The notes under the pieces: model-generated
The model's input: only the letters and a program-made list of their open reading frames with translations
Told to the model about the DNA's origin: nothing
Databases searched by the model: none
DNA from: Methylobacillus gramineus
Lineage (GTDB): Bacteria; Pseudomonadota; Gammaproteobacteria; Burkholderiales; Methylophilaceae
NCBI RefSeq assembly: GCF_020532675.1
Contig: NZ_JAJAVE010000003.1
Span: 248,001 to 312,000 of the forward strand
DNA length: 64,000 bases
Direction: 5' to 3'
Part shown: positions 28,374 to 46,646 of the stretch, piece after piece
How the letters are laid out: every line of letters begins with the position of its first letter
Numbering within the stretch: position 1 is the first letter of the stretch
Program-made: the position numbers and the translations under genes

Positions 28374-28540
28374 TGCCTGAGACCTCTATGGGTTTGACTA
28401 GGGTCTAACCCGCTTAAATGGGTAGGACCAACATTTTATTCATTTACCTGCAGAGTGAAAACCGGGCGCACTATTTGCGGTAATGCTGATGCAATTTTCG
28501 CCACTGGCGCAGTAGTCTACTCCAACCCAGCTAGTAGGTT

Positions 28541-28564
28541 AAAAAATCGGAATAGCTGACTCCG
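28541..28564 (-). terminator. Intrinsic terminator after nrdJb
   Basis: Read on the minus strand, CGGAGT and ATTCCG form a 6-bp stem (one G-U pair) with a 5-nt loop, followed by ATTTTTT. It begins 11 bp after the nrdJb stop. Confidence 0.65.
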
Positions 28565-28574
28565 GCGTGACACC

Positions 28575-29273
28575 CTATCCACATTTGCTGTCTCCGCAAT
28601 TCAGGCACGTCAAACAACCGTCCATGACAATGGCAGCCTTGGTATGGCACTTGTTGCAGAGTTGTGCGCTTTTAGGAAAACCTTCTGCATTAATGGGTTC
28701 TTCAGTGTGTTTTTCTAGATATTCGGCACGTTTTTCATTGATGAGTTTTTGTTGGTGTTCGTCGGGGCTCGTCTTTTTTAACATGCCAATCTGGTACAGG
28801 TGTTGCTCCAATACCTCACCGATTTCAGCGACCAGGCTGGGCACATATTTGCCGCCTTTTTTGAAGTAGCCGCCGCTTGGTTCAAACACGCTCTTGAGTT
28901 CTTCCACCAAAAAGGTGATGTCCCCACCCTTGCGGAAGGTGGCAGACATCACGCGTGTCAGAGCCACTATCCACTGAAAATGATCCATGTTCTTGGAGTT
29001 GATGAATATCTCGAAGGGGCGACGATGTTCTTGTGGCGTGCCCTCGTTCATGATCACGTCATTGATGGTGATGTAAAGCGCATGTTCCGTGACTGGAGTC
29101 TTGATCTTATACGTATTGCCTACCAGCATTTCAGGGCGGCTTAGTGGTTCGCCAAGCTGGACGATTTCTGCCAGTTTTTGTTCATGCGCTTTTTGTTCGG
29201 CAGCCGCCTTGGCTTTGTCTTCTTCGGTGATGACGTTATAGCCAGTAATTTTTTTCTCTATCTTGATTGCCAT
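28575..29273 (-). CDS. nrdJb: B12-dependent ribonucleotide reductase, C-terminal subunit NrdJb
   Basis: A 232-aa protein matching the separated C-terminal part of class II ribonucleotide reductase, as in Pseudomonas nrdJa-nrdJb. The central part (about 95-190) carries the TSCPD-type segment (PFEIFINSKNMDHFQWIVALTRV, then VFEPSGGYFKKGGKYVPSLV), and the end is a Cys-rich tail with CNKC, CLTCLNC and a final CG, a zinc-ribbon-like element that likely renews the active-site disulfide. A good Shine-Dalgarno AGGAGA precedes the ATG. It lies 98 bp downstream of nrdJa, and the gap holds an unusual hairpin. Function requires NrdJa. Confidence 0.92.
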   Translation of the reverse strand: MAIKIEKKITGYNVITEEDKAKAAAEQKAHEQKLAEIVQLGEPLSRPEMLVGNTYKIKTPVTEHALYITINDVIMNEGTPQEHRRPFEIFINSKNMDHFQWIVALTRVMSATFRKGGDITFLVEELKSVFEPSGGYFKKGGKYVPSLVAEIGEVLEQHLYQIGMLKKTSPDEHQQKLINEKRAEYLEKHTEEPINAEGFPKSAQLCNKCHTKAAIVMDGCLTCLNCGDSKCG

Positions 29274-29314
29274 GGTGGTCTCCTAATGCAATAGACGCTG
29301 TATCGGGTGTTTTT

Positions 29315-29349
29315 GCTAGAGCAGCGGACTCTTAATCCGCTTGTCTAGC
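29315..29349. other. Intercistronic hairpin resembling a tRNA-Lys anticodon arm
   Basis: GCTAGA (29315-29320) pairs with TCTAGC (29344-29349), a 2x2 internal loop follows, and AGCGGA (29323-29328) pairs with TCCGCT (29336-29341), leaving the 7-nt loop CTCTTAA. On the plus strand the inner arm and loop, with the preceding TAGAGC, read as the D-stem/anticodon arm of a bacterial tRNA-Lys(CUU). Acceptor stem, D-loop and T-arm are absent, so it is not a functional tRNA. It lies between nrdJa and nrdJb, antisense to them in tRNA orientation. Confidence 0.65.
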
Positions 29350-29371
29350 TGGGGTGGCGGTGATTTCAACA

Positions 29372-31531
29372 TTAGAACTTGCCGTAATAACCTTCCTTCA
29401 ATGCATCGTAAAGGTTGGCCGCGCTGTGAATTTCCCCATCATATTCAATCTCGTCATTACCCCTGGCTTCCACCACGGTGCCATCTTCCAGCGTGAATTT
29501 GTAGGTGGTGTTTTCCAGGTCTTTTTCGGTGACCAGCACACCCTGGAAGGCTTCTGGATTGAAGCGGAAAGTGGTGCAACCCTTTAACCCCTTGTCATAG
29601 GCATAGATATAGATATTCTTGAAATCTTCGTAATCGTAGTCGGTGGGGACGTTGATGGTCTTGGAGATGGAGCTGTCTATCCATTTTTGTGCAGCAGCCT
29701 GGATATCCACGTGGGCCTTGGCCTGAATGGTGGATGAATCAAGGAAGTAATCGGGTAATTGCTCTTCCGCTTTGTCTGAAAACGGCATGGCGTTGGCATT
29801 GACCAGTTCACGATAGGCCAGCAGTTCATAGGAAAATACATCGACTTTTTCCTTGGATTTCTTGCCCTCACGAATGACGTTGCGTGAATAATGGTGCGCA
29901 AATGAAGGCTCTATACCGTTGCTCGCATTGTTGGCCAACGACAGTGAGATAGTGCCAGTCGGGGCAATCGAGCTGTGATGGCTAAAGCGAGAGCCGGTCT
30001 TGGCAATTTGCTGGCGTAGTGATTCCGGAAATTGCTGCATGTAGCGACTATATAGCCCCATTAGTACCTTGCCCTTGAGCTTGTCGCCAAGTTTGATCCC
30101 ATCCTTGCCCATTTCCGGGCGTTTGGCTAGCAAGTCCGCGGTGATTTCAAACTCTTCTTCCATGATAGGGGCGGCACCTTTTTCCTCTGCCAGTTCTACG
30201 CCGATTGTCCAACCGACTTCCGCCATGATCTTGGTGACTTCTTCAGTAAATGTGAGGGAGGCACTATCGCCATATTGCATCTTGAGCATGGTGAGAGTGG
30301 AGCCCAGGCCTAGATAGCCCATGCCGTGACGGCGCTTGCGTGCAATTTCGTCACGTTGCTGTTGTAGCGGGAGTCCATTGATCTCGACGACGTTATCCAG
30401 CATGCGGGTAAAGACTGCGACCACTTCGCGATATTCGGCCCAGTCAAAATAGGCCTTGTCAGTAAATGGCTGGCGGACGAATTTGGTCAGATTGATTGAT
30501 CCCAGCAAACAGGCACCGTAAGGAGGTAATGGCTGTTCTCCACAGGGATTGGTAGCGCGGATGTTTTCGCAGTACCAGTTGTTGTTCATTTCATTGACAC
30601 GGTCAATCAGGATGAATCCTGGTTCAGCAAAATCGTAGGTGGATGACATGATGACATCCCACAAACGCTGCGCACGGATAGTCCGGTATACACGGCATGC
30701 CACCTTGCCGTCAGATTCACGGGTCAGGTATTTGCCCTTGACTGGCCATTCCCGCCACACCACCTGGTCTTCATCACCAAGATCAAGAAGATCAATATTG
30801 GCCTCTTTCTCTGTGACGGGAAATGCCAGCTTCCACTCTGCATCAGCCTTCACTGCCTCCATGAATTCCTTGGTAATCAGGCAGGAGAGGTTGAATTGAC
30901 GCAGGCGTCCAGCTTCACGCTTGGCTTTGATGAAGTCGGTCACATCGGGATGCGAAATGTCAAAAGTGGCCATTTGAGCGCCACGGCGACCACCGGCGGA
31001 AGAGACAGTGAAGCACATCTTGTCGTAGATATCCATGAAGGACAGCGGACCGCTGGTATAAGCGCCCGCTCCCGCGACAAATGCCCCTTTGGGCCGTAGC
31101 GTGGAGAATTCGTAACCGATGCCGCAGCCTGCTTTGAGCGTCAGACCTGCTTCATGCACTTTTTCCAAAATACCATCCATGCTGTCTTCGACAATCCCGG
31201 ATACGGTGCAGTTGATCGTGCTGGTGGCGGGCTTGTGTGCTTGTGCGCCGGCATTGGAAGTAATGCGACCTGCCGGAATAGCGCCGCGGCGCAACGCCCA
31301 GAGAAAGCGTTCAAACCACTGTGTGCGTTTTTCTTCCGTGTCCTCAACGTCAGCCAGCGCACGTGCCACGCGTTGGTAAGTATCATCCACGTCCTGGTCG
31401 ATGAAATTGCCCTGCTTGGTTTTCAGGCGATACTTCTTGTCCCAGATGTCCAGAGAAACTGACTGCATCGTCACTTCTGGTACCTCTGACTCCTGATTGG
31501 CTGGGTTAGCAGATTTCACGGCCTTGAGCAT
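29372..31531 (-). CDS. nrdJa: B12-dependent (class II) ribonucleotide reductase, catalytic subunit NrdJa
   Basis: A 719-aa cytoplasmic enzyme that reduces ribonucleotides to deoxyribonucleotides using adenosylcobalamin, with or without oxygen. Visible features: the first redox Cys108 in STINCTVSG, the substrate-site region KAGCGIGYEFSTLRPKGA (about 133-150), and the catalytic triad motif NPCGEQ at 328-333 with the thiyl Cys330 and Glu332. GCTTFRFNP near the C-terminus is also family-typical. The redox tail is carried by the separate nrdJb. Shine-Dalgarno GGAGAAG precedes the ATG. Two NrdR-like boxes upstream suggest repression by NrdR. No nrdAB genes are in the window. Confidence 0.95.
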   Translation of the reverse strand: MLKAVKSANPANQESEVPEVTMQSVSLDIWDKKYRLKTKQGNFIDQDVDDTYQRVARALADVEDTEEKRTQWFERFLWALRRGAIPAGRITSNAGAQAHKPATSTINCTVSGIVEDSMDGILEKVHEAGLTLKAGCGIGYEFSTLRPKGAFVAGAGAYTSGPLSFMDIYDKMCFTVSSAGGRRGAQMATFDISHPDVTDFIKAKREAGRLRQFNLSCLITKEFMEAVKADAEWKLAFPVTEKEANIDLLDLGDEDQVVWREWPVKGKYLTRESDGKVACRVYRTIRAQRLWDVIMSSTYDFAEPGFILIDRVNEMNNNWYCENIRATNPCGEQPLPPYGACLLGSINLTKFVRQPFTDKAYFDWAEYREVVAVFTRMLDNVVEINGLPLQQQRDEIARKRRHGMGYLGLGSTLTMLKMQYGDSASLTFTEEVTKIMAEVGWTIGVELAEEKGAAPIMEEEFEITADLLAKRPEMGKDGIKLGDKLKGKVLMGLYSRYMQQFPESLRQQIAKTGSRFSHHSSIAPTGTISLSLANNASNGIEPSFAHHYSRNVIREGKKSKEKVDVFSYELLAYRELVNANAMPFSDKAEEQLPDYFLDSSTIQAKAHVDIQAAAQKWIDSSISKTINVPTDYDYEDFKNIYIYAYDKGLKGCTTFRFNPEAFQGVLVTEKDLENTTYKFTLEDGTVVEARGNDEIEYDGEIHSAANLYDALKEGYYGKF

Positions 31532-46415: not shown

Positions 46416-46456
46416 CTATAAGCTTGATTCCATCAGGGTTTTAACGTAAATTCAGA

Positions 46457-46563
46457 ACCTAGCTGGGGGTCTGCATTTCCTGATCAAAGATGTTGGTGGT
46501 TGGGAGTGCAGTGAGAGTTACCCTTTGAACCTGACGCGGATCATCCCGCCGTAGGGAAGCTGC
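46457..46563 (+). promoter_or_regulatory. Thiamine pyrophosphate (TPP) riboswitch upstream of thiC
   Basis: The conserved parts of the THI element are present in order: the P1/P2 segment with GGGGG at 46464-46468, the GTGAGAG of P3 side (46511-46517), ACCCTTTGAACCTGA (46520-46534) and the closing GCGGATCATCCCGC followed by CGTAGGGAAG (to 46559). TPP binding should hide the thiC ribosome-binding site or cause early termination. Confidence 0.93.
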
Positions 46564-46646
46564 TGTAGGTTTCATGGGTCTCGCTATTTATCATCCGATA
46601 ATCCCCTATGACACTTCCATCGCTCCCTGCATTTTTGGAGCCCTGA

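Follow-up and report, generated by a model that had tools for sequence, protein, structure and literature searches.

The window analysed here, a stretch of 64,000 nucleotides from Methylobacillus gramineus, contains nrdJa and nrdJb, which together make up one split ribonucleotide reductase gene; both are on the minus strand. The coordinates of the locus, counted from the first letter of the window, are as follows.

28575..29273, minus strand: nrdJb, second cistron, 232 aa (open reading frame list; name from the preliminary description of this DNA)
29372..31531, minus strand: nrdJa, first cistron, 719 aa (open reading frame list; name from the same description)
29274..29371, minus strand: 98-nt gap from the nrdJa stop to the nrdJb start (sequence and open reading frame list)
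29315..29349, no strand assigned: 35-nt hairpin (folds of both strands)
29313..29345, plus strand: segment matching tRNA-Lys(CUU), comprising the D-stem 3' half, the anticodon arm and the variable loop (31 of 33 positions identical)
29331..29333, plus strand: CTT at the anticodon place (sequence), corresponding to AAG in the hairpin loop of the nrdJ mRNA

The plus strand of the hairpin (29315-29349) reads GCTAGAGCAGCGGACTCTTAATCCGCTTGTCTAGC. The preliminary description had proposed a hairpin with an outer stem GCTAGA/TCTAGC and a 7-nt loop CTCTTAA, and both the sequence and the fold bore this out. In the predicted structure GCTAGA (29315-29320) pairs with TCTAGC (29344-29349), and 29323-29328 pairs with 29336-29341 to form an inner stem, separated from the outer one by a small internal loop; on the plus strand the 7-nt loop CTCTTAA occupies 29329-29335. 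Folding of the nrdJ mRNA strand gave two extra pairs in the inner stem and a loop of only 3 nt. It is the strand antisense to the nrdJa-nrdJb mRNA that resembles a tRNA, a point absent from the preliminary description. The fold of the whole 98-nt gap was only moderately unusual, as indicated by a z of -2.37 on the nrdJ mRNA strand (5 of 200 shuffles folded equally well) and of -0.89 on the opposite strand (37 of 200). Some 40 nt separate the hairpin from the nrdJb start, further downstream, and the hairpin leaves the AGGAGA motif free.

Inspection of the mRNA strand revealed no U-tract 3' of the hairpin, where AAAAACACCC comes next, indicating that the hairpin is not an intrinsic terminator. 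A Rho-independent terminator was thus ruled out, the hairpin being also absent from the terminator scan list. A tRNA gene was ruled out because ARAGORN did not detect any tRNA in the window or in locus L001, and a T-box leader because the hairpin is intercistronic and no T-box was among the Rfam matches of the window. Searching the window with Rfam at gathering scores did not reveal any known RNA family at the hairpin; the only match, a TPP riboswitch, lies elsewhere (46455-46574, plus strand, 57.4 bits). An antisense RNA had also been suggested, and a crude scan of 28400-29310 argued against it, as no plus-strand promoter-like site was detected in this interval.

We next compared the gap with the tRNA genes of the same genome. 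The full tRNA-Lys(CTT) gene is located at G000:C1:1367434-1367506, and its alignment with the gap covers 33 bases, 31 of them identical, starting two bases before the hairpin and ending in the variable loop. The resemblance to tRNA-Lys(CUU) recognized in the preliminary description was therefore confirmed, including the anticodon arm, and it extends further than had been claimed, by the variable-loop bases TTGTC and two bases upstream. Aligned locally with the own tRNAs, the gap scored 28.0 at best (the set comprised 40 entries, or 31 distinct 76-mers, from 30 of the 43 tRNA places, those given loci), and 1000 dinucleotide shuffles of the gap scored 16.0 at most. Backwards-read tRNAs did not score above 12.0 against any of the scored gaps. 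The 21-mer AGCAGCGGACTCTTAATCCGC has a single exact occurrence in the genome, in the nrdJa-nrdJb gap; when up to two mismatches were allowed, three further places appeared, corresponding to tRNA-Lys(CTT), tRNA-Lys(TTT) and tRNA-Met(CAT).

A covariance model of the tRNA arm region was then built from 22 own segments and used to search the genome (3.05 Mb), in which 150 out of 1140 candidates from a first look were scored, with E up to 5. It yielded 36 matches: 28 overlap tRNA genes, the gap was found with an E of 0.0011, and the other seven had E of at least 0.34. The nrdJa-nrdJb gap was thus the only non-tRNA place with E below 0.3 for this profile in its own genome. A dispersed, REP-like repeat present in many copies was ruled out, since no second credible non-tRNA copy exists in the genome. 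The alignment with the own tRNA, the genome-wide profile search and the gaps of relatives described below support the conclusion that the hairpin is tRNA-derived, from an antisense fragment of the tRNA-Lys(CUU) gene, in agreement with the tRNA-derived remnant envisaged previously.

The same gap was examined in relatives. Of the 187 genomes of the family (Methylophilaceae), 172 yielded an NrdJb relative. We read 110 family loci, of which 96, from 95 genomes, were parsed automatically, and 80 named loci, of which 75 were parsed, many from the same genomes as the family set. Pooling gave 171 gaps, 142 of them distinct, and the 135 distinct gaps of at least 20 nt were scored; 13 further loci were read outside these counts. 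Eight of the 135 scored gaps contained tRNA arms; against own tRNAs they scored between 15.5 and 28.5, and the following gap scored 12.5. This range was not attained by any gap parsed outside the family. The arm corresponds to tRNA-Lys(CTT) in the window's genome (G000) and in G054, as well as in G050, with the U33 position changed, and in G053, on the sense strand and with an interrupted loop. It corresponds to tRNA-Lys(TTT) in the Methylophilus genomes G059 and G062, and to tRNA-Asn(GTT) in G106 and in G173, the latter with Asn variable-loop bases. The arm is antisense in seven of the eight distinct carrier gaps. As to whether the hairpin is kept in close relatives, the answer was mixed: it is paired in the nearest species (G054) and altered yet paired in G053 and G055, and it is replaced in G056; G057, the sixth genome of the genus, gave no NrdJb match.

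Pattern searches led to the same gap. The mirrored-stem pattern CGGAYTNTTAATCCGYTN{0,3}GCTC and the stem-strengthened 17-mer GCGGACTNTTAATCCGC were each found in 3 of the 187 family genomes, always between nrdJa and nrdJb. A slightly narrower form of the mirrored-stem pattern (C for the first Y) gave no match in 399 genomes drawn from across the order, which comprise 13 family genomes but none of the three pattern-positive ones. A 22-mer pattern with one mismatch allowed matched 48 places in 12 selected genomes, five of them in the gap (G054, G059, G062, G106 and G173). ARAGORN, applied to 16 of the loci with this pattern, identified a tRNA in 13, and three were gap loci; some of the remaining places were classed by sequence inspection. 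With the same pattern and tolerance a Lys(CTT) match was absent in G059, G060, G062, G172 and G173, in agreement with the TTT or Asn arm of each carrier among them (G059, G062 and G173).

In order to follow the history of these arms we placed the gap contents on a tree of NrdJ proteins only (NrdJa C-terminal part and NrdJb, 67 rows). The tRNA-arm state required 6 changes on this tree, at least five of them forced by well supported branches, and was distributed over five lineages. A test of clustering on the tree was weak, with values as low in 18 of 500 shuffles. G059 and G062 branch within a group of Methylophilus genomes that mostly carry another gap element, and G173 adjoins M. versatilis 7, which carries that Methylophilus element too. 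The different source tRNAs, together with the tree position of the carriers, suggest that tRNA arms were captured at least three times in the nrdJa-nrdJb gap. As far as origin is concerned, a single ancestral capture, later kept tRNA-like by gene conversion or selection, would explain the use of the same gap throughout and the prevailing antisense orientation. We regard it as unlikely, since the arm is of the Lys(CTT), Lys(TTT) or Asn type according to the lineage, the flanks are unlike one another and the carriers are nested among relatives with other elements.

The captured segments, with the exception of that of G173, have gained a complementary outer arm. The predicted energies ranged from -15.5 to -24.9 kcal/mol over both strands for seven entries (G000, G054, G050, G059/G062 as one, G106, G053 and G055), versus -5.4 to -11.2 for three parent segments, all from the window's genome, the hairpin ends having been picked by hand, which favours strong stems. 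Predicted stability was thus roughly doubled by stem extension, again except in G173, whose arm has no extended stem (-9.2 and -9.0 kcal/mol) and resembles a raw fragment. One outer pair differs at both positions when G000 and G054 are compared, and pairing is kept. In G055, the sister of G053, stem and flanks are kept and the loop is no longer tRNA-like; in G053 the loop is turned round. Since the strong stem is kept while the loop, the orientation and the source tRNA vary, anticodon mimicry by the hairpin appears unlikely. Binding of lysyl-tRNA synthetase, another earlier suggestion, seems unlikely as well: the anticodon-like loop stands on the strand opposite to the mRNA, some relatives carry Asn arms, and the loops of G050 and G053 are altered as described above.

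The mRNA loop is complementary to the anticodon loop of tRNA-Lys or tRNA-Asn, and it may be imagined that it pairs with that tRNA and thereby couples nrdJ expression to the state of the tRNA. The loop UUAANAG and the antisense orientation are indeed kept in G000, G054, G059, G062, G106 and G173. We nevertheless give this very little credence, as the loop is altered in G050 and, in G053 and G055, either turned round or gone, and as a complement of the anticodon loop is a trivial result of antisense insertion. Just as improbable, in our opinion, would be a recurrent, mostly antisense placing of Lys or Asn arms beside the nrdJa end, itself an island target, in which the loop, complementary to their anticodon loops, lets the dNTP-making operon sense or capture these tRNAs or their fragments.

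We then classified the contents of the 96 parsed family gaps. Eight contained tRNA arms, one of them with a CATTCC repeat too; 29 contained a TGTACA-centred element, six with a CATTCC repeat too; eight had the CATTCC repeat alone and seven a GTAGGAG repeat; 25 were at most 66 nt long without any element class, 23 of these folding at -7.7 kcal/mol or weaker; and 19 contained other sequences, many visibly palindromic, the classes being coarse in that L031, of the TGTACA type, and G055, whose stem and flanks resemble a drifted copy of those of G053, were filed among the latter, and that L087 and L096 were filed as short and plain yet fold at -25.9 and -21.9 kcal/mol. The short gaps without any element, and the presence of another sequence in the gap of G056, which belongs to the same genus as the window's genome, indicate that such a hairpin is not essential. 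The core motifs of the three repeat kinds occurred 22 times in 5.8 kb of gap versus once in 200 kb of surroundings at 65 loci, some of which share a genome; as the surroundings are mostly coding DNA, this comparison does not separate a gap that is favoured from one that is tolerated.

Two further features of the gap were observed. A long palindrome, CTCATGTAC...GTACA(C/T)TCCGG, fills it in many Methylophilus and Methylotenera (L035, L072, L083, L031 and others), and a similar form is present in the gammaproteobacterial loci L226 and L228. A putative small open frame, alike across species, was noticed in the gap at L186, L196, L205, L093 and L111. A candidate copy, in inverted orientation, of the end of nrdJa within the G059 gap was dropped, since its score of 10.0 was no better than that of three other Methylophilus gaps.

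A serious rival to any functional reading is that the gap is permissive for palindromic DNA, tRNA arms included, and that these sequences are functionless. The many unrelated repeat types found in the gap, which often contains none, and the drift of loop and orientation are what would be expected if the hairpin were merely tolerated, as it could be. The tRNA-derived stems have, however, been lengthened and not decayed, although template-switch repair could achieve this without selection, and the outer pair changed on both sides between G000 and G054 is still paired. We consider the absence of any function possible, but not probable.

In some relatives the two genes are not adjacent. G073, G186, G051 and G184 carry them on a single contig and the same strand, with about 11-18 kb between them, and in G166 they are on separate contigs, indicating that tight nrdJa-nrdJb coupling is not required. 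The insert of G073 starts about 160 nt after nrdJa and contains three phage integrase family genes (371, 547 and 622 aa) and a small fourth gene without Pfam match; in G166 a predicted 370-aa integrase-like protein is encoded at the equivalent place after nrdJa. In both genomes the gap and nrdJb are preceded by a copy of the nrdJa 3' end, and the gap is intact beyond this right repeat. These inserts (L389 378-5486, L305 and L393 in G073; L378 221-1333 and L306 in G166) therefore appear to be GInt-like islands at the nrdJa 3' end. Passages of PMC5385486 describe GInts in P. aeruginosa PA_D16 that are located where a ribonucleoside-diphosphate reductase alpha gene ends. Judging from the translations, the cargo comprises CBASS-like genes in G073 (L305) and UmuDC-like genes in G166 (L306). 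In G186, G051 and G184, where about 11-16 kb separate the two genes, we observed a putative tad pilus-like cluster (L302, L307, L391 and L304) and a terminator-like hairpin after nrdJa.

The preliminary description had mentioned an integration event as a possible source of the remnant, and the arm could in principle be a by-product of site-specific integration, for instance by elements that also target tRNA anticodon arms. The nrdJa 3' end is an island target in G073 and G166, both of which repeat it before nrdJb, GInts are reported from the corresponding position in P. aeruginosa in the passages cited above (PMC5385486), and viral contigs contain fragments (L326, L356, L361 and L367) that appear to be attachment-site-like 3' parts of tRNA-Lys or tRNA-Asn genes starting at the anticodon stem. 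Nevertheless, the island repeats of G073 and G166 consist of nrdJa-end sequence and not of tRNA, so that neither contains the hairpin sequence, the ends of the G073 insert scoring at most 10.5 against tRNAs. The best tRNA-like score within 300 bases on each side of the insert ends was 11.5 or less in G073, G186, G051 and G184, so that the hairpin is unlike an island attachment site in the four inserts scored. Furthermore, the window's fragment contains the D-stem side but no T-arm, whereas the four viral-contig fragments run from the anticodon stem towards the tRNA 3' end, and in G073 and G166 the gap itself is intact beyond the right repeat. An integrase attachment remnant in a tRNA, which would comprise the 3' portion with the T-arm, was ruled out since the match stops in the variable loop, and we hold an origin by integration to be improbable.

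Mobile elements were also examined as a source of the arm. The gap matched 85 phage records, none over 80% of its length; nine of the ten listed correspond to annotated tRNA-Lys or tRNA-Asn and one to a hypothetical protein. It matched 168 plasmid records, again none over 80%; the ten listed were without an annotated feature or unannotated, and the one examined, on an Azospirillum plasmid, is a tRNA-Asn gene. On viral contigs there were 53 matches, 47 of them within tRNAs predicted by ARAGORN; on inspection, two of the six others look like tRNA genes cut by the piece end and four like the 3' tRNA fragments mentioned above. Since the phage, plasmid and viral matches are mostly tRNA genes where examined, a mobile source of the arm was rejected.

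Taken together, these results lead us to favour, with moderate confidence, the explanation that a captured tRNA arm acts as a non-terminating, intercistronic mRNA hairpin affecting decay. A fragment of tRNA-Lys(CUU), from the D-stem 3' half to the variable loop, would have been copied antisense into the nrdJa-nrdJb gap, possibly by illegitimate copying with snap-back template switching, which is a guess. The 3' flank would then have turned complementary to the D-stem half, converting a weak arm into a strong two-part stem. If nrdJa and nrdJb are transcribed as one mRNA, as seems probable, the product would be a plain non-terminating hairpin of the malE-malF kind in the nrdJ mRNA. After endonuclease cleavage, the hairpin may shield nrdJa from 3'-5' exonucleases and thereby separate the fates of the two cistrons. 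A role in mRNA decay seems the likeliest for the hairpin, and the earlier proposal of an RNA processing site balancing NrdJa against NrdJb is our best functional guess.

The nrdJ hairpin shares with decay-blocking hairpins of the malE-malF type a stable stem between cistrons without U-tract. Such hairpins occur in E. coli operons, where 26 of 34 stabilised upstream genes are described, in passages of PMC5927463, as ending just past a stable hairpin without U-tract. It differs from them in that its sequence comes from a tRNA arm and in that its decay role is presumed from sequence. REP and other dispersed palindromic repeats likewise place a palindrome in an operon gap, and such repeats do occur in the same gap of relatives; unlike them, the nrdJ hairpin is not accompanied by any other credible non-tRNA copy in its genome. 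In PMC9897764, incomplete tRNA genes found away from tRNA loci are attributed to integration and CRISPR spacer uptake. The nrdJ fragment is also a partial tRNA gene in such a place, but it is internal, with neither tRNA end, so that neither integration nor CRISPR uptake fits; in addition it is extended into a longer hairpin and directly flanked by nrdJa and nrdJb, unlike the fragments described there. As to the islands of PMC5385486, again from the passages cited, a GInt-like island stands at the nrdJa end beside the gap in two relatives, but its repeats are those of the nrdJa end, the window has no island between the genes and the hairpin is no part of an island. We found no report that deals with the nrdJa-nrdJb gap or with the capture of tRNA arms as intercistronic hairpins among titles and the first lines of abstracts in the open-licence literature.

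The GInt-like islands of two relatives provide a further case, beside that of P. aeruginosa, in which such elements adjoin the 3' end of a gene for ribonucleotide reductase. The arms themselves represent a recurrent natural case of an operon gaining an RNA hairpin from pieces of its own tRNA genes, pieces that were later strengthened and that are interchangeable with palindromic repeats. One family displays the short gap, the raw arm (G173), the extended arm and the turned and drifted arm, and such states would make the origin and selection of intercistronic hairpins testable in cultivable methylotrophs.
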